From: a bacterium | GTDB taxonomy: Bacteria; Patescibacteriota; Saccharimonadia; Saccharimonadales; Saccharimonadaceae | Direction: 5' to 3' | DNA length: 43,338 nt | NCBI GenBank assembly: GCA_030429975.1 | Contig: JAUIGB010000006.1 | Location: forward strand, 1-43,338 | Part shown: one piece after another, positions 9,132 through 27,763 of the stretch | Layout: every line of letters starts with the position of its first letter | Numbering within the stretch: the stretch's first letter is position 1 | Notes under the pieces: generated by a model | Databases searched by the model: none | Seen by the model: the letters and a program-made list of their open reading frames with translations, nothing else | What the model was told of the DNA's origin: nothing | Made by a program: the position numbers and the translations under genes

Positions 9132-9137
9132 TATAAT
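9132..9137 (+). promoter_or_regulatory. -10 of murC
   Basis: TATAAT ends 8 nt before the ATG at 9146, leaving no room for an SD; the mRNA should be leaderless or have 1-2 leader bases. Confidence 0.6.
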
Positions 9138-9145
9138 TGGTATGT

Positions 9146-10396
9146 ATGAATATCTATTTTTGCGGAATTGGCGGCGTAGGAATCGGTCCATTAGCCGAGA
9201 TAGCATTTGATGCCGGCCACAATGTCTGGGGGTCTGACAAAAACGAAGGCATGGTTACGAAGCTACTAGAGGCCAGGGGTATCTCTGTCAGTTATGATCA
9301 GTCTGGTGACAACTTGCGCGCTATAAACGAACAACACCCTATCGATTGGTTCGTGTACACGGCAGGCATCACAGAAGAACATCCAGAACTAGTGACGGCA
9401 CTGTCAATGGGCATCAGAACATCCAAGCGCGATGAATTACTCAGCGAAATAGTCGAGCAAAAAGGCCTAAAATTGATAGGCATCACTGGAACCCACGGTA
9501 AAACCACTACCACTGCCATGATGATATGGACACTCAAACAATTGGGTATTCCTATTAGCTATTCTGTAGGCGCAACTATGCAGTTCGGACCTAGCGGCCA
9601 CTTTGATCCCGACAGCGAATATTTTGTATATGAATGCGACGAGTTCGATCGCAACTTCCTAAAGTTTCACCCGTATCTTTCAATAATTACTTCGATAGAT
9701 TACGACCATCCCGATATCTACGATTCATCCGAAGATTACACGAGAGCTTTTCGAAAATTCATCGACCAAAGCGCATGGACAATATTGTGGCGCAGTGATG
9801 CCGACAAGGTTGGTGATGTCAAAAACGGTTGGGTACTGGGTAATCATGATTCGGCGGATATCAGACTGGCGGGCCAACACAACCGCGACAACGCTAGCCA
9901 AGTCATAAAAGCTATCGAACGACTCGGTATCAAGGGCGATGCCGTCACCGCAATAAACAAGTTTCCCGGGGCAAACAGACGCTTCGAAAAGCTTGCAAAC
10001 AACCTGTACACCGATTACGGACATCATCCTATAGAGGTAGAGGCGACTTTGCAAATGGCAAAAGAAGTCGCGGAAAAGGTCGTGCTTGTTTATCAGCCCC
10101 ACCAAAACGTTCGCCAACACGAACTGCGCTCTCACTATACAAATTGCTTCGAACAGGCCGACAAAATATACTGGCTACCAACATATTTAACTCGCGAGGA
10201 TCCGGAATTACCCGTTCTGACCCCCAGTGACCTGATTGAAAACGTCACGAACAAGGATGACGTAATCATATCAGAGCTCGACGACAACCTGTGGCGTCAA
10301 ATCCAATCAGAGATTGATAATGGATCACTCGTGCTGGTTATGGGCGCCGGTTCAATCGATGACTGGGTTCGCAAGGAACTACGACAAAAAGCCTAG
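9146..10396 (+). CDS. murC: UDP-N-acetylmuramate--L-alanine ligase
   Basis: MurC adds L-alanine to UDP-MurNAc with ATP, the first peptide step of cytoplasmic peptidoglycan precursor synthesis. The 416-aa protein has GIGGVGIGPLAE at the N-terminus, the P-loop GITGTHGKTTTT, the central CDEFDRNFL segment (Mur ligase Glu/Asp region), DYDHPDIY, and C-terminal GHHPIEVEAT and YQPHQNVR. These fit MurC (or the close Mpl) and not MurD/E/F. ATG 9146 is chosen over a TTG 9 nt earlier because the -10 overlaps that TTG. It is slightly shorter than typical MurC (about 450-490 aa). It overlaps the convergent MazG gene by 4 bp. Confidence 0.9.
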   Translation: MNIYFCGIGGVGIGPLAEIAFDAGHNVWGSDKNEGMVTKLLEARGISVSYDQSGDNLRAINEQHPIDWFVYTAGITEEHPELVTALSMGIRTSKRDELLSEIVEQKGLKLIGITGTHGKTTTTAMMIWTLKQLGIPISYSVGATMQFGPSGHFDPDSEYFVYECDEFDRNFLKFHPYLSIITSIDYDHPDIYDSSEDYTRAFRKFIDQSAWTILWRSDADKVGDVKNGWVLGNHDSADIRLAGQHNRDNASQVIKAIERLGIKGDAVTAINKFPGANRRFEKLANNLYTDYGHHPIEVEATLQMAKEVAEKVVLVYQPHQNVRQHELRSHYTNCFEQADKIYWLPTYLTREDPELPVLTPSDLIENVTNKDDVIISELDDNLWRQIQSEIDNGSLVLVMGAGSIDDWVRKELRQKA

Positions 10397-10734
10397 CGAT
10401 TATCACCGCTACCGTGTAGCTTGCCTCTTTGTTGACGACTAGCTAGTTTATCTATATTTGCTTGGGCTACATCCTCTAGCGAGTAGCCAAGTAGATGTGA
10501 AACAGCGTTAACATACCAAAGCACGTCGCCAAGCTCCTTCATGATTTCTTTTTTATCTTCATCACTTAGGACACCTTGTTTATCACGCAATAGTTTTTTA
10601 AATTTACCCAGAACCTCTCCGCTCTCATCAGATAATCCCAAAATCTGACCCATCATTTGCGAGGTAATGTCGCCGTAGTCATACTGTGTTGTTAGTGTTG
10701 TTATAGCGCGCTTCGAATACTCATCAATATTCAT
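10393..10734 (-). CDS. MazG-like nucleotide pyrophosphohydrolase (MazG-I)
   Basis: This 113-aa all-alpha NTP-PPase carries the MazG metal-binding pattern: GLSDESGEVLGKFKK followed by EIMKELGDVLWYV. Such enzymes cleave (d)NTPs, including damaged ones and possibly ppGpp, to NMP and PPi. The start is ATG 10734 with SD AGGAGGG 5 nt upstream. It follows the wHTH-Nudix gene (30-bp gap), so it is probably the second gene of that operon. A second, different MazG-like gene (11525) starts the divergent operon. Confidence 0.88.
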   Translation of the reverse strand: MNIDEYSKRAITTLTTQYDYGDITSQMMGQILGLSDESGEVLGKFKKLLRDKQGVLSDEDKKEIMKELGDVLWYVNAVSHLLGYSLEDVAQANIDKLASRQQRGKLHGSGDNR

Positions 10735-10763
10735 GTCAGCCCTCCTGTTAGTTCTATCTAATA

Positions 10764-11435
10764 CTAACAATTGTGTTCGAATTCCTCAAAATAAAAGGGG
10801 TCACGAAAAAAAGTTCGGGTCATAATTTGTTCGACGCCGGGTGCCAAGTCCAATTGCATCAGTTTGTGCGGACGCATCCACTGCGTATGTTCGTTCGTCT
10901 CTATATTATCGCGATAAAAGGCGAACACATGGGCAAGCGTCAAGATAACCTGCTCGCCGTTCTGCGTAACACGAATATAGCAGTCACCGGCATGGCGCAT
11001 TTCTTGATCTACCACCCCCAATTTCTCCCGTGCCTCGCGCCGAGCAGCCATGTGCACATTGGCGTCATCATTGTGCAGCTTGCCGTTTGGCAGGTTCCAA
11101 CTGTCAATAAATGGTTGTTTCGTTCGTCGTTGCAACAAGATGTCGCCCTCACTGTTTTGGATGACGAACATGGTCACTATCTTTGGCTGATTTCTGACGA
11201 ATAGCTTATCTTCGTTTACTCTATCGACATAAATCAGTCCGGCAACATCAAGAGTATAGCCATCGTCAACCTTTTTGACCATCCCGCCTTTTAGTAGCTG
11301 GGTCAGATGATAGCTATATAAATTCGTGTCTACGCGAGGCGGTCGCATATCACGAAATCGAGCAGTTTTTTGATGCATCAATGTGCTCAAAATATTTTTT
11401 TGTATATTGTGTTTTACTACTGTTTGATCAATCAT
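10764..11435 (-). CDS. wHTH-Nudix protein (paralogue 1)
   Basis: This 223-aa two-domain protein has a winged-helix N-terminus at about 1-70 (helical segment, TNLYSYHLTQLLKGGMVKKV, then a beta wing) and a Nudix domain at about 80-200. The Nudix box GKLHNDDANVHMAARREAR runs on as EKLGV; it departs from GX5EX7REUXEEXGU at the first Glu (Asp) and has E-K in place of the second E-E. Activity may be altered, or the domain may act as a ligand sensor. The order is opposite to NrtR (Nudix then wHTH). The palindrome TTGAGTCAA sits 2 nt before the ATG, over the expected transcription start, which suggests autoregulation. The paralogue is at 24312. Confidence 0.85.
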   Translation of the reverse strand: MIDQTVVKHNIQKNILSTLMHQKTARFRDMRPPRVDTNLYSYHLTQLLKGGMVKKVDDGYTLDVAGLIYVDRVNEDKLFVRNQPKIVTMFVIQNSEGDILLQRRTKQPFIDSWNLPNGKLHNDDANVHMAARREAREKLGVVDQEMRHAGDCYIRVTQNGEQVILTLAHVFAFYRDNIETNEHTQWMRPHKLMQLDLAPGVEQIMTRTFFRDPFYFEEFEHNC

Positions 11436-11437
11436 TT

Positions 11438-11446
11438 TTGACTCAA
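11438..11446. promoter_or_regulatory. Candidate operator TTGACTCAA in the divergent promoter region
   Basis: A 9-bp palindrome lies between the -10 (TATATT on the minus strand) and the ATG of the wHTH-Nudix gene, facing the MazG-aaRS-CYTH operon. The same 9-mer occurs twice upstream of the second wHTH-Nudix gene (24196, 24226). A shared binding site for these two regulators is inferred. Confidence 0.5.
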
Positions 11447-11524
11447 AATATACTGTCTAGATGTTTATATGGTATCACGTTACGATGAAAATGTGATAGA
11501 AATCCACACGGAAAGGAATAGGGT

Positions 11525-11797
11525 TTGGCAAAGGAAAAACAACCAACAAATATTGGGTATCATCTGACCGAGATCCCCAAAGGCCAAGTGGGAGAATCTA
11601 GCAAAATATTGGAGGAGGTATTAGAGCTACAGGACGCCGAACAACAAGACGCGAAAATCATGCAACTAGTTGAACTTTCGGACATAATCGGTTCAATCGC
11701 CCTATACATGGAAAAGCACCATCCATCGACCACGATTGACGACTTAATAATAATGGCGCGTATAACGAGGAGGGCTTTTGAAAATGGCAGACGTTAA
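11525..11797 (+). CDS. MazG-like protein (MazG-II)
   Basis: This 90-aa protein has the phage/archaeal-type MazG-like pattern: an ESSKILEEVLELQDAEQQD helix carrying E-E-x-x-E and then ELSDIIGSI. A short NTP pyrophosphohydrolase is inferred; family members bind Mg through these acids. The start is TTG with AAAGGA about 8 nt upstream; no alternative ATG precedes the conserved part. It is the first gene of a three-gene operon and overlaps the next gene by 14 bp. Confidence 0.8.
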   Translation: MAKEKQPTNIGYHLTEIPKGQVGESSKILEEVLELQDAEQQDAKIMQLVELSDIIGSIALYMEKHHPSTTIDDLIIMARITRRAFENGRR

Positions 11798-12371
11798 AAA
11801 CCATAGGCCTCAATTTATAGATTATCGTAAGATTTCGGAGGCATTAGACTACTATGAATCTCGGGGATACGAGTACATGGAGGTGCCTTGGGTTATTGAC
11901 CATAAATCTACCGAGATAACATTACCAGCAGGCCGTGAAGCTACTGCACTACAATATGGTGATTTGGTCGGCAGTGCCGAGCAGAGCTTCATCGAACTAA
12001 TGCGTCGTGGCGAAACTATACTAAAAGCCTGCGCTGTTACCCCGTGTTTTCGTATCGAGGATAGTTATGATGACCTACACTATCCGTACTTTTTAAAATG
12101 CGAGTTAATTGATACTGATGCAACCGACGAGAACTTGCACCAAATGATAGACGACGCCAGTGCTTTCTTTTCGCAGTATACAGAGGTCGATATAGAGGAA
12201 ACAGAGCCTGACGCATACGATATAGTCGACCGCAAAATGCGAATAGAGTTGGGCTCATACGGTATCCGTAACTGTGAGGGTAAGCGGTTCATATACGGGA
12301 CCGGCGTTGCACTACCTCGTCTGACTTCAGTTCTAGAAAGAAATCGTGATAATATACAGGTTAATACATGA
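11784..12371 (+). CDS. Stand-alone class II aminoacyl-tRNA-synthetase-like catalytic core
   Basis: This 195-aa protein looks like a bare class II aaRS core. LVGSAEQSFIELM (61-73) matches the 'TxE' substrate loop of Ser/Thr/ProRS; AVTPCFRIE (84-92) and the following HYPYFLKCELI match motif 2 (fRxE ... F); YGTGVALPRLTSVLER (171-186) matches motif 3 (G-x-G ... R). There is no anticodon-binding or editing domain and no motif-1 dimer interface that I can see. Such orphan cores (HisZ, AsnA, PoxA, BirA-like) make aminoacyl or acyl adenylates for uses other than translation. ATG 11784 has GAGGAGGG upstream. It overlaps the next gene as ATGA. Confidence 0.72.
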   Translation: MADVKNHRPQFIDYRKISEALDYYESRGYEYMEVPWVIDHKSTEITLPAGREATALQYGDLVGSAEQSFIELMRRGETILKACAVTPCFRIEDSYDDLHYPYFLKCELIDTDATDENLHQMIDDASAFFSQYTEVDIEETEPDAYDIVDRKMRIELGSYGIRNCEGKRFIYGTGVALPRLTSVLERNRDNIQVNT

Positions 12372-13546
12372 CAGAAAAAACACCACACATCGATGATTAT
12401 GTTCATGATGACTATGCCCAAATCGAGAGAAAATACATTCCAGACAGCGATGCCCGTGATCTGTTGAATGATACTTTTACAGATAATCGTACGCGCATAA
12501 CCCAACTGCAACTGAGTCATACTTCGGAACCATACAATTTATGTATGCGCAAACATACCCCCGAGGGTAAACCACCGGATTTTCGCGTAGAAATAAAAAA
12601 CGTGGGAATGATGAGCGAAGATGGGTGGCGACGTATGCAGATACCGGCCGACATAGACCGAGAGCTTTTTGAACAGTACGAGGATCAAGATGTTCCAGTC
12701 GTTAAAAAATGGCGCGCATATCCGCTAGACAACCGTGATGTACATATTGATTTCTTTGACAACGGACACGTCCACGCCAAAAGCCGCAATCCCAAATCCT
12801 GGACACAATTCATTCGTTCGTACGATCTGTCAGAAAACTTTGCAGATATCACTGGTAATCCCCTTTCCAGTAGCGAATGGTACGCGCATAACGATTACAA
12901 GCGAAGCCATGGTGGACGCGAGATATTGGCGCCACGCACCAATCCGTCGGTTGACCATGCTATATCTGAAATACATGCATGGCGCTCTATACATAATGAA
13001 AAGCCTATCATACAAGTTAGTGGCAGATCTGGATCGGGCAAAACGTATTTTGCACATCTAATAAAGCAAGAATTGTCGAATGGCAGTAATCCACTACAAG
13101 CAATAGTGCTATCAACCGACGAATATAATCGAGGGCGCACCGAGCTCTACAAGCGTGGCGGTGGAACCTGGCATAATTACGATGCCGACGAAGTATGGGA
13201 CACGCTTGAATTTGGGCACGACATGCAGCGATTGCGTTCCGGAGAATCAATCCCCAAAATATATTTTAACTATGATACCGAGGAAAGAGAGATAGTTGGC
13301 ACGATTAATCCAGATGAATATGACGTTATTGTTTACGAGGGCGTAAAATCCCACAGCCCCGATCTGCATGGACTAGCCGACCTGACCTACGAGGTCCCGA
13401 CGCCACTGGCAACATCGCTCGGCCGACGTATTGTGCGCGACCTTATGACCCGCCCGCGTTTTGCGGATCCAAAAGCAAATCTAACTTATTATCTTACATA
13501 CGCCGAGCCTGAATATAGCAGACTATACCTACCTAGCTCCAGTTAA
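12368..13546 (+). CDS. CYTH (triphosphate tunnel) - uridine-kinase-like fusion
   Basis: This 392-aa fusion has an N-terminal CYTH domain at about 15-145: it opens with QIERKY (the ExExK signature with Gln first), then alternating basic and acidic strands and KKWRAYPL...HIDFF. The C-terminal P-loop kinase at about 210-390 has IIQVSGRSGSGKT (Walker A), VLSTDEYNRG as in uridine kinase/PRK, and DVIVYEG. CYTH enzymes hydrolyse triphosphates or act as adenylate cyclase or thiamine triphosphatase. Plant TTM1/2 carry the same two domains in the opposite order. Translation is coupled (ATGA) to the aaRS-like gene. The substrate is unknown. Confidence 0.8.
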   Translation: MTEKTPHIDDYVHDDYAQIERKYIPDSDARDLLNDTFTDNRTRITQLQLSHTSEPYNLCMRKHTPEGKPPDFRVEIKNVGMMSEDGWRRMQIPADIDRELFEQYEDQDVPVVKKWRAYPLDNRDVHIDFFDNGHVHAKSRNPKSWTQFIRSYDLSENFADITGNPLSSSEWYAHNDYKRSHGGREILAPRTNPSVDHAISEIHAWRSIHNEKPIIQVSGRSGSGKTYFAHLIKQELSNGSNPLQAIVLSTDEYNRGRTELYKRGGGTWHNYDADEVWDTLEFGHDMQRLRSGESIPKIYFNYDTEEREIVGTINPDEYDVIVYEGVKSHSPDLHGLADLTYEVPTPLATSLGRRIVRDLMTRPRFADPKANLTYYLTYAEPEYSRLYLPSSS

Positions 13547-14031
13547 CTGCGGGATATAGCTATCTTTGCAACGATTGTCCGAAGGTTTCCATATTCCGGT
13601 CTGTCCGCAGTTGCGATGTATAAATTCTTTGACACGTATCCTTTTGGGTTTACCGTCTCGCCCTGTTGATGCGTAATATGTGGCCGAAATCCTTCATGAG
13701 TATATTGTGGCTTCTCATGTACGGCGTCTAGACTAACAAGAGACGAAACGACTCTTTCGTGCAAATCAATAAGTTCATGACGTCTCTCTAACGTCGTGAC
13801 GGTTACTGGAATTTCGCCTTCATTTGTCGTAGCAGTAAACGTTTCCTGACCATTCGGCGTCAAGCGAATTGACCTTGTGTAGTTATCTCCAACACAATCT
13901 GAAATTTCTCCCGTCGTAATTTCCTGATCTAGCCAAAACCAATGCACCAGCGTGGAATGCAGTGGTAACATCTCGTATTGCTCGCCTGTTTGCACGGGCG
14001 TTACTTCGTTTGCGATTAGGTATGGTTTCAT
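13543..14031 (-). CDS. 2H phosphoesterase (LigT-like)
   Basis: This 162-aa protein has two H-x-T motifs, HSTLV at 25 and HITHQ at 118, the signature of the 2H superfamily (2',3'-cyclic phosphodiesterases, LigT/ThpR, oligo-2',5'-A phosphodiesterases). It overlaps trmB upstream as ATGA (start 14031) and ends overlapping the CYTH-kinase gene tail to tail. The coupling with trmB suggests an RNA-related role; the position opposite the aaRS-like/CYTH operon suggests a link to it. Both are inferences. Confidence 0.8.
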   Translation of the reverse strand: MKPYLIANEVTPVQTGEQYEMLPLHSTLVHWFWLDQEITTGEISDCVGDNYTRSIRLTPNGQETFTATTNEGEIPVTVTTLERRHELIDLHERVVSSLVSLDAVHEKPQYTHEGFRPHITHQQGETVNPKGYVSKNLYIATADRPEYGNLRTIVAKIAISRS

Positions 14032-14675
14032 TTCGTATTCCTTGTCCGAACAAAATTCGTCTTTAATCCTTCGCCTAACCACTTTATTTCATATGTAGTC
14101 ATGATTTTGTAGTCGTCGTTTAGGTCTGAATTTTGCAGATCATTAGACTCCTCCAAAATCGTCCAGTTTTCTTTTTTGAATTGTTCAATGCTCCAATCAA
14201 AAAACTCTCGATTGTCATGTTTCAGCAAGATTTCCCCATCACTACGTAACAGCTCTTCGTACTGTCGCAAAAAATACGGATGCGTCATACGACGTCGTTC
14301 AGATCGCTCCCGCGGGAATGGATCGGGGAACGTTATCCATAGTTTTTTTAGCGATTTTGCAGGCACAACTTCATGTAATAAATCGGCACGGGTGCGTACA
14401 AACCAGATGTTTTCTAGTTTTCTTTTTTCAGCCTCAAGAGCACCCTTTTGTAATCGATCGGCCTTTACATCGATTGCGACAAACGTTGCTTCGGGATGTC
14501 TGGTTGCCAACTCTACAGAGAAAAGAGCCGTACCAGCTCCGAGTTCTATTACATCAACCTCGCGTCTCTTCCATTCTTCCAGCTCGAAACATAGTGATGA
14601 ATTAGCAAACAATGCAAACTTATACTTTTTGCGTTTTCTAGAAATGACAAAATCGTTTGGATTAAGGCGCGTCAA
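14028..14675 (-). CDS. trmB: tRNA (guanine-N7-)-methyltransferase
   Basis: TrmB methylates G46 in the tRNA variable loop with SAM. The 215-aa protein has the SAM-binding VIELGAGTALFSVELA, FVAIDVKADR, and the TrmB-specific ITFPDPFPRERSERRRM and P-x-F-L segments, followed by the LLKHDN strand. The length is normal for the single-subunit bacterial enzyme. The start overlaps the upstream gene by 14 bp, and the stop overlaps the 2H phosphoesterase start, so it belongs to an operon of four genes (15547 to 13543). Confidence 0.95.
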   Translation of the reverse strand: MTRLNPNDFVISRKRKKYKFALFANSSLCFELEEWKRREVDVIELGAGTALFSVELATRHPEATFVAIDVKADRLQKGALEAEKRKLENIWFVRTRADLLHEVVPAKSLKKLWITFPDPFPRERSERRRMTHPYFLRQYEELLRSDGEILLKHDNREFFDWSIEQFKKENWTILEESNDLQNSDLNDDYKIMTTYEIKWLGEGLKTNFVRTRNTK

Positions 14676-24311: not shown

Positions 24312-25022
24312 ATGCACTATATCCAAAAAGGTATCATTCAAAAGCTAGCTAGGCTCGCCCCCCAACGATTCTCAGACCTTCAACCAGACGATGTACCGAA
24401 CAATACTTTTTCGTATCATTTAAAGAAATTATCCCAAGCTGGCTACGTAGAGCTAACGGATGGAGGTTATGTTGCCACGCGAAAGGCCATGAAGTCCATC
24501 CAGTATGCAGCTGATGGCGACAAAAAGACCCGTGTTCCTATTTTTATTACCGCTATATACGTTACTAACACTGATGATGAAGTCCTGTTAATCGAACGTA
24601 ACAAACAACCATTCGTGGGCTGGTGTGGCATACCGGCAGGCCTCATACACCAAGGCGAGCATATGCACGACGCTGCTAGACGTGAATTGATGGAGAAAAC
24701 GTCCATAAAGGCACCCAGCCTAAAATTCGCCGGGGTGCTCGATTTCCAATACCTCGAGCAAATCAGTGGTGACCTTTTCGTACACACCGTGGCATTTATA
24801 TACTCATACAAATTGCCAGGTGACGGCAAACAACTTGCTGGCCACACTACGAGATATGGAAAACTTTTGTGGTCAAAACTAGATCATGCTCATATCCTTC
24901 CAGAGGTGGAAACCGTAAAGGATTTGGTAAAAAATTCTACTCCATCAGTTGAATCTGTTAACTACGATGAGCCAACCATTAGTACTCAAACTAAAGAGAG
25001 TCAGCGTTTTTTAAGGAAATAG
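24312..25022 (+). CDS. wHTH-Nudix protein (paralogue 2)
   Basis: This 236-aa protein has the same build as the gene at 10764: winged helix at about 1-65 (PNNTFSYHLKKLSQAGYVEL and a wing DGGYVATRKA) and Nudix at about 75-200. The Nudix box GLIHQGEHMHDAARRELMEK keeps the first Glu but, like paralogue 1, has E-K and then T-S-I for the usual E-E-x-G-U. A regulator sensing a nucleotide-type ligand is inferred. The start ATG has GAGGGAG 12 nt upstream. The promoter carries four TTGACT repeats of 15 bp. It overlaps corA tail to tail by 22 bp. Confidence 0.85.
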   Translation: MHYIQKGIIQKLARLAPQRFSDLQPDDVPNNTFSYHLKKLSQAGYVELTDGGYVATRKAMKSIQYAADGDKKTRVPIFITAIYVTNTDDEVLLIERNKQPFVGWCGIPAGLIHQGEHMHDAARRELMEKTSIKAPSLKFAGVLDFQYLEQISGDLFVHTVAFIYSYKLPGDGKQLAGHTTRYGKLLWSKLDHAHILPEVETVKDLVKNSTPSVESVNYDEPTISTQTKESQRFLRK

Positions 25023-27079: not shown

Positions 27080-27679
27080 CTACCGATCAGCCAATCCTAG
27101 AACACTATCTATGTCGTTATAGTATGGCCCTGGTTTAGAATAATTGTTCGTTATAGAAAAATGCGCCATCCTACGAACCGCGTCCAAATTAGCCACCGTT
27201 TTGTCACTAGGATCACCAAACTCTTCTACCAAACTACGCGCCGTGAAATCTTTTAGTGTCTGTTGGGATTCGGTGTCGCGCTGCCTCCGTACTATTCGAC
27301 GATGGCGAAGCTCTGTCATAGCCTCGACGAATATTAACGTACCTCCCATTTCTAGCAATTTTTCCGCCTCGCCCACGGTGCGCATACCAGTTACCGCAAG
27401 TCCACCTGGATAAGCTTCAGGGGACTGTTCCCATTTTTCCATAGACGCCATTACCAATGCACCTACGCTCCTGTATTCACGGCGCAATTGTATACCTAGA
27501 TCGATCAGTGTTTGTCTTTCGGTATCAAGTCCTCTGTCACGAGCCACTTCACGAACCAAATCTCCTGTTGGAGAATGCAAAAAACCGTGATTCTCCTCTA
27601 GGTATTTTCCGCCTTCATCTTTTCCAGAGCCTCTCAGCCCCGCTATGCCAACCAGTCTTCCCTCGCCAAAATCAGTCAT
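27080..27679 (-). CDS. P-loop nucleotide/dephospho-CoA kinase-like protein
   Basis: This 199-aa P-loop protein has GIAGLRGSGKDEGGKYL (Walker A), a LVREVARDRGL lid-like helix, GLAVTGMRTVGEAEKL and a C-terminal RRMAHFSITN segment, as in dephospho-CoA/adenylate kinase-type NMP kinases of archaeal style. The substrate is not clear. ATG 27679 is chosen because GGGGGAAGG lies just upstream; longer in-frame starts exist. Confidence 0.75.
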   Translation of the reverse strand: MTDFGEGRLVGIAGLRGSGKDEGGKYLEENHGFLHSPTGDLVREVARDRGLDTERQTLIDLGIQLRREYRSVGALVMASMEKWEQSPEAYPGGLAVTGMRTVGEAEKLLEMGGTLIFVEAMTELRHRRIVRRQRDTESQQTLKDFTARSLVEEFGDPSDKTVANLDAVRRMAHFSITNNYSKPGPYYNDIDSVLGLADR

Positions 27680-27763
27680 ACCTTCCCCCGTTGTTATTGT
27701 TATCATCCTAGCCCATGGCCGATAACCATACAAGCACAAACGACATCAACACTGTTTATTTTT

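Follow-up and report, generated by a model that had tools for sequence, protein, structure and literature searches.

A MazG and mini-synthetase gene pair shared by phages and Patescibacteria, possibly producing an aminoacyl-nucleotide, beside a predicted Nudix-domain repressor

Class II aminoacyl-tRNA synthetase (aaRS) cores are known from complete synthetases such as SerRS (~425 amino acids, aa) and from tRNA-independent enzymes, among them the amino acid:[carrier protein] ligases, EpmA/GenX and AsnA. In Z-genome phages, the MazG-like enzyme MazZ supplies (d)GMP to the ligase PurZ (PMC8342488), and in NrtR-type repressors an N-terminal Nudix domain is combined with a C-terminal winged helix-turn-helix (wHTH) (PMC4666351). 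Here we describe a locus resembling each of these in part, found in a 43,338-nucleotide (nt) stretch of DNA (contig JAUIGB010000006.1, positions 1 to 43,338, forward strand; hereafter, the window), one of the contigs of a 1.02 Mb genome of the Saccharimonadaceae (Patescibacteriota; GCA_030429975.1). In this locus the gene for a small MazG-type protein (MazG-II) overlaps that for a class II aaRS core (hereafter, mini-synthetase), divergently from a gene encoding a wHTH-Nudix protein. The best overall explanation, which we put forward as possible but short of probable, is that MazG-II and the mini-synthetase form a two-enzyme cassette, shared with phages, that makes an aminoacyl-nucleotide and in Patescibacteria stands beside a wHTH-Nudix repressor.

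Like the SerRS catalytic core, the mini-synthetase has the class II fold and the S/T-x-E, P-C-[FY]-R-x-E and F-x-K-x-E motifs, and SerRS is its top profile match, but it has only ~195 aa, no tRNA-binding domain, and a gene encoded with MazG. The tRNA-independent ligases named above are also class II cores, and single mini-synthetase members match their models weakly; the mini-synthetase is, however, much smaller, and its partner is MazG rather than a carrier protein or EF-P. The likeness to MazZ-PurZ lies in the outline, a MazG-like enzyme gene next to a nucleotide ligase gene in phages, whereas PurZ is an adenylosuccinate-synthetase homologue and the partner here is a class II aaRS core, the MazG family differs and no datZ was noted. 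The wHTH-Nudix protein, a predicted repressor, shares with NrtR/AraR the two domains and a conserved near-symmetric site at its own promoter, but its wHTH comes first, its putative operator is TTGASTCAA and it would control other genes. Judged by its sequence, it may work like NrtR rather than being NrtR.

By profile match, the window MazG-II belongs to PHROG 6408 (E 7e-35) and the mini-synthetase to PHROG 4806, families with 275 and 272 phage records, respectively, and near-identical host tallies. In isolated Vibrio, Caulobacter, E. coli, Morganella, Cronobacter and Acinetobacter phages the two genes are adjacent, with MazG leading. In 37 of 41 IMG/VR loci, a set with some near-duplicates, MazG-II and the mini-synthetase are no more than ~2 kb apart, mostly overlapping and in a few in reversed order; the other four have no MazG-II nearby, and a contig end cuts one of them. 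Three fusions, each with the synthetase first, were found in a Woesearchaeota metagenome-assembled genome (MAG), in the Patescibacterium G496 and in MaMV-DC, a Microcystis phage whose 266-aa gene annotated 'histidyl tRNA synthetase' contains the MazG match. The adjacency, recurring in these loci and in isolated phages, thus exceeds chance, and the two genes are almost certainly a real unit, as the original prediction, based on the DNA letters of the window, had expected of its MazG and aaRS genes. No plasmid-borne copies of the pair were found.

The AF2 model of the mini-synthetase, built on 32 relatives, was of high quality (pLDDT 93.8, pTM 0.88), and its best 50 Foldseek matches were class II synthetase cores only (PylRS, PheRS and SerRS; TM 0.61-0.69; probability 1.00). 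In a profile search of the PDB, the 17 top matches were all SerRS (best E 8.5e-7), followed by AspRS and PylRS. Model, structural matches and profiles agree in pointing to a class II aaRS core, the fold originally proposed for the middle gene, and that proposal stands. In the profile alignments, S-x-E-Q falls opposite T-[AS]-E of SerRS, TPCFRxE opposite PCYRRE and FxKxE opposite FDKVE, and motif 3 of the mini-synthetase (GTGxAxPR) resembles that of SerRS. All ten of the weaker genome matches of the mini-synthetase profile that were long enough to test were SerRS; an hhalign comparison with the local SerRS gave a low-scoring alignment, yet with the motifs in register.

Across the relatives, the S-x-E-Q, P-C-x-R, F-x-K-x-E and GT motifs and the last R are invariant. 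Invariant residues in the alignment include S64, E66, R90 (motif 2), F103, K105, E107, E155, T173 and R179 (motif 3), and position 92 is E or D in nearly all 32 relatives. This conservation is consistent with an active enzyme, and the mini-synthetase quite probably forms an acyl-adenylate. With ~180-195 aa, mini-synthetases consist of the core alone, without an N-terminal tRNA-binding arm or any other tRNA-binding domain. The profiles suggest a mini-synthetase of seryl type; we do not file it as SerRS because the window protein is a 195-aa core without the tRNA-binding arm. A PheS or D/K/N-type synthetase, suggested by initial weak matches, was displaced by SerRS in the profile search, and a replacement SerRS for the host was ruled out by the intact, full-length SerRS encoded separately in the same genome. 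As a separate observation, two mini-synthetase members weakly matched NCBIfam NF051887 ('PheS-related mystery ligase SrmL', an uncharacterised class II-type ligase; best E 0.001).

In MazG-II, the ExxE...ExxD metal-binding motif (E30, E31, E34, E50 and D53) is invariant across 27 relatives. A Pfam search of the protein gave no match, and its PDB profile match had an E of 0.1. On the evidence of the motif, MazG-II likely belongs to the all-alpha nucleoside triphosphate pyrophosphohydrolases (MazG/HisE).

Outside phages, the pair is kept in a few bacteria with tiny genomes. A class-wide search with a two-sequence profile found the mini-synthetase in 4 of 295 genomes, and among nine genomes of the same genus it was present only in G008 (order: murC / MazG-I / wHTH-Nudix // MazG-II / synthetase / trmB), where the CYTH-uridine-kinase fusion (CYTH-kinase) and 2H-type genes of the window are absent. 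Scanning genome contigs with a single sequence gave no match; a further scan extended the list to UBA6223 (Saccharibacteria), the Woesearchaeota MAG, a MAG of the Proteobacteria and a contig of the Flavobacteriaceae, and G496 came from a search of the phylum. The pair stands beside a wHTH-Nudix gene in five bacterial genomes (the window genome, G008, UBA6223, G090 and G069), which fall into two separate clades. In the tree, the window, G008 and UBA6223 sequences form one clade (100/97) with viral sequences adjoining, and G090 and G069 form a second (98/86). Branches with strong support require the cell/virus label to change at least three times; the tree being unrooted, these changes may be gains or losses.

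A P-loop kinase is encoded in four of these five loci, G008 being without one, so that it is a frequent but not obligatory partner of the pair. Its type varies: CYTH-uridine-kinase in the window and UBA6223, AAA_28-CYTH in the reverse domain order in G090, and AAA_28 alone in G069. The order MazG, aaRS and CYTH-kinase, for which conservation had been anticipated, is kept in its first two members, and the triad recurs in UBA6223; there, however, the genes divergent from wHTH-Nudix run CYTH-kinase, MazG-II, synthetase, and the place of the CYTH-kinase is not kept. In three viral contigs (L073, L080 and L111), an AAA_28-like kinase ORF (open reading frame) is no more than ~3 kb from the pair, reminiscent of the AAA_28 kinases in G069 and G090.

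The window wHTH-Nudix protein matches NUDIX (E 1e-13) and, in its N-terminal part, the wHTH-type DUF7347 (E 6e-5, under the curated cut-off). Its Nudix box is degenerate in all 22 aligned relatives, with the second Glu of the EE pair replaced, mostly by Lys, and with a one-residue insertion in most. This suggests that the domain is probably a sensor and not the hydrolase originally assumed, and the regulator-like character proposed for the protein gains from the same degeneracy and from a conserved operator-like palindrome. The palindrome (ATTTGASTCAAAT) was recognised on reading the divergent promoters. Of 29 wHTH-Nudix genes, 27 have TTGASTCAA in the 150 bp upstream, in most cases 2 nt away from the start codon, against an expectation of ~0.0014 per region; many of the regions counted are related by descent, and the palindrome had been spotted beforehand. 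It is found in the controlling intergenic region of all five loci that unite the pair with wHTH-Nudix, and in the same-genus genomes whose locus was read it sits at the wHTH-Nudix gene regardless of the neighbours. In G090, the wHTH-Nudix gene follows the kinase gene and stands apart from the murC-trmB locus; there, TTGASTCAA occupies the promoter region from which the MazG-II/synthetase and kinase/wHTH-Nudix operons diverge.

In the window genome, the exact sequence TTTGACTCAAA has a single copy, 1 nt ahead of the wHTH-Nudix start codon on one side and 77 nt ahead of MazG-II on the other. A search of this genome for a wider regulon gave just two other, weaker sites, one in an ORF and one near small hypothetical ORFs. 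The wHTH-Nudix protein looks like a probable repressor with TTGASTCAA as an operator-like palindrome; the palindrome may have a promoter function because its TTGACT core resembles a -35 element. A second wHTH-Nudix paralogue in the window (24312-25022, + strand) has TTGASTCAA 77 and 107 nt upstream and may mark another operon with this type of regulator; near it is a P-loop nucleotide-kinase-like ORF with the motif GLRGSGKDEGG (27080-27739, - strand). A third paralogue, on contig C37, has no TTGASTCAA site.

In the proposed mechanism, MazG-II would hydrolyse a (deoxy)nucleoside triphosphate, releasing pyrophosphate and the monophosphate, and the mini-synthetase would use ATP to activate serine, or a comparable small amino or carboxylic acid, as an acyl-adenylate. 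Because the mini-synthetase has no tRNA-binding domain, the acyl group is predicted to be handed to a small acceptor; this may be the nucleotide released by MazG-II, since the genes are translationally overlapped and sometimes fused, and the product would then be an aminoacyl-nucleotide. The closest precedent for such logic is MazZ, which feeds dGMP to PurZ. A nucleotide as the acceptor is about as plausible as not, leaning slightly to the negative. The P-loop kinase, where present, could phosphorylate a nucleoside or the product. The wHTH-Nudix protein would bind TTGASTCAA, repress the operon and let go on meeting a nucleotide-like ligand. The fullest form of the proposal, rather unlikely to hold in every part, is a widespread and undescribed two-enzyme phage pathway that also occurs in two separate clades of Patescibacteria. 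Its product would be an aminoacyl-nucleotide, probably a seryl-nucleotide, serving as signal, cofactor or DNA precursor, and in bacteria it would be controlled by a Nudix-domain repressor of a new type with TTGASTCAA as its recognition site.

Several points weigh against this aminoacyl-nucleotide proposal. The MazG-II model has three helices, and although MazG and HisE structures are among its Foldseek matches, all have E >1. Foldseek places PylRS and PheRS ahead of SerRS for the mini-synthetase, which makes its amino-acid specificity unsure. The choice of acceptor is a guess from analogy, no activity is on record for PHROG 6408 or PHROG 4806, and a constant third partner of the pair, sought in the phage neighbourhoods, was not found. 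Thymidylate synthase, DHFR, RNR and dCMP deaminase genes are close to the pair in some phages, which is weak support because phage genomes are rich in such genes and the tally has no background comparison. R2K-clade ATP-grasp domains (3 of 104 neighbour proteins), DUF4326 and ADP-ribosylglycohydrolase also occur near the pair in a few phages.

The tight coupling and occasional fusion of the pair would also suit a sensor and its effector, in which the mini-synthetase binds an amino acid or aminoacyl-adenylate without ligation and switches MazG-II, which in turn trims a nucleotide pool or alarmone in infection or starvation. Sensors derived from aaRS have precedents in HisZ and in the HisRS-like domain of GCN2. 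Very divergent phage and bacterial copies, however, keep the class II activation motifs, which favours catalysis, and cyanophage MazG is reported not to hydrolyse magic-spot nucleotides (Rihtman et al. 2019); we regard this explanation as unlikely. The wide but patchy occurrence of the pair in unrelated phages, the cellular copies in separate clades and a Nudix-type regulator that could sense a nucleotide are also what counter-defence or detoxification would predict, the pair destroying or modifying a toxin or defence signal of nucleotide-like nature, such as an aminoacyl-nucleotide inhibitor, and having been taken up by some bacteria for protection. That one methylase family aside no recognised defence gene is prominent among the tallied neighbours, and that the bacterial locus carries metabolic nucleotide genes, makes this distinctly unlikely.

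Hypermodification of DNA bases, with a modified (d)NMP as the product and a kinase restoring the triphosphate for incorporation into phage DNA, has a precedent in MazZ-PurZ (PMC8342488) and is in keeping with the thymidylate synthase, RNR and DHFR genes that adjoin the pair in some phages. It is improbable, as the pair also occurs in cellular genomes without a known modification polymerase and no constant kinase or polymerase partner was found in the phages. The mini-synthetase gene is annotated as seryl-tRNA synthetase in several phages, and in phage RXM, which has a dNMP kinase, ThyX and two MazG genes near it, it was taken at face value as an ordinary SerRS (PMC8953757). A small seryl-tRNA synthetase aiding phage translation, as such annotations assume and as the nearest family by profile would allow, is nevertheless very improbable for a protein of ~180-195 aa that has no tRNA-binding domain, is paired with MazG and occurs in a bacterial host with a SerRS of its own. 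Chance co-location, with the pair functionally unlinked to the other genes here, would fit the clearly varying content of the murC-trmB hotspot and is the least probable of all, given that pair, wHTH-Nudix and TTGASTCAA recur together in two separate clades, one of them outside that locus.

The six genes that the original prediction combined into one nucleotide-linked system all lie where it placed them, wHTH-Nudix and MazG-I to the left and divergent from MazG-II, mini-synthetase and CYTH-kinase (Table 1). The overlaps amount to 14 nt between MazG-II and the mini-synthetase, 4 nt between the mini-synthetase and the CYTH-kinase, and 4 nt, tail to tail, between the CYTH-kinase and the 2H gene.

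Table 1 Features of the murC-trmB locus, in positions of the window
Feature	Coordinates	Strand	Remarks
murC-like Mur ligase	9137..10396	+	left border of the variable locus
MazG-I	10393-10734	-	PF03819, E 1.5e-10; predicted MazG-type pyrophosphohydrolase downstream of wHTH-Nudix
wHTH-Nudix protein	10764-11435	-	winged helix at the N terminus, Nudix domain at the C terminus; predicted repressor that senses a ligand
predicted wHTH-Nudix operator, TTTGACTCAAA	11437..11447	no strand	putative; palindrome conservation
MazG-II	11525-11797	+	90 aa, TTG start; PHROG 6408; first gene of the pair
mini class II (seryl-type) synthetase core	11784-12371	+	195 aa; PHROG 4806; seryl type predicted
CYTH - uridine-kinase-type P-loop kinase fusion	12368-13546	+	392 aa; domain profiles
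2H-type phosphoesterase-like gene	13543-14037	-	E 6e-4, under the cut-off; judged outside the system
trmB	14028..14675	-	right border of the variable locus

As one system, the six genes do not hold together, and that arrangement was ruled out: the conserved unit has two genes, the CYTH-kinase mostly occurs without the pair, MazG-I is optional and the 2H gene looks unrelated. The roles first suggested, a second messenger, a modified cofactor or RNA repair, are neither supported nor contradicted by these results. In 15 loci, its usual setting, the CYTH-kinase family is divergent from a wHTH-Nudix gene and the pair is absent. MazG-I is also found in G005, G006, G007, G008 and G123. The 2H gene was not found in any related cellular locus scanned for it and is probably a recent insertion.

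The kinase domain of the CYTH-kinase matches a uridine kinase model (E 4e-16, under the equivalog cut-off) with its kinase motifs intact. The proposed CYTH domain is borne out by the family profile (matches to 2fbl/3typ, E 7e-10), and ExExK is kept in nearly all relatives; the window copy, however, is degenerate, with Gln for the first Glu of EXEXK, QIP for the ExE after R89 and several near-invariant residues lost, which makes its CYTH activity doubtful. The plant proteins TTM1/TTM2 likewise combine uridine kinase and CYTH domains, in the reverse order, and TTM1 (7z66) was matched weakly via the kinase part; they differ in that the window CYTH is degenerate.

The murC-trmB interval is a hotspot in which the nucleotide-metabolism gene content varies among relatives. 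At wHTH-Nudix, replacing the window genes or added to them, these have Nuc_deoxyrib_tr (G006), a YfbR-like HD gene (G016), NTPase_I-T (G211), a nucleoside deoxyribosyltransferase-like gene with an HD gene (G186), further Nudix genes, MazG-I, or, in G004 and G007, unknown genes. Such variation suggests a nucleotide-handling locus under one regulator. In the slot beside wHTH-Nudix, two proteins without a Pfam match (L165:2117-3067 in G007 and L167:2172-2843 in G004) are candidate further nucleotide enzymes, and in G001 (L009:4394-6133) the murC-like Mur ligase ORF runs on into a Nudix-like C-terminal domain in one 579-aa frame.

We know of no kind of system that unites a tRNA-free seryl-type synthetase with MazG, and a search of the open-access literature, subscription papers apart, found no description of the pair as a system. 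What is new is the system as composed; its parts come from known superfamilies, both phage genes were already catalogued, and the product of the pair could prove a variant of a known pathway. Some 270 phage records, those of well-studied E. coli and Acinetobacter phages among them, hold a 'histidyl' or 'seryl' tRNA synthetase gene that lacks the tRNA-binding part and travels with a MazG gene. Seen as one cassette, two little-understood PHROG families become a single testable enzyme pair in easy laboratory phages. The pair may reveal an unknown nucleotide modification, and the Saccharibacteria gain a predicted regulator with its operator.

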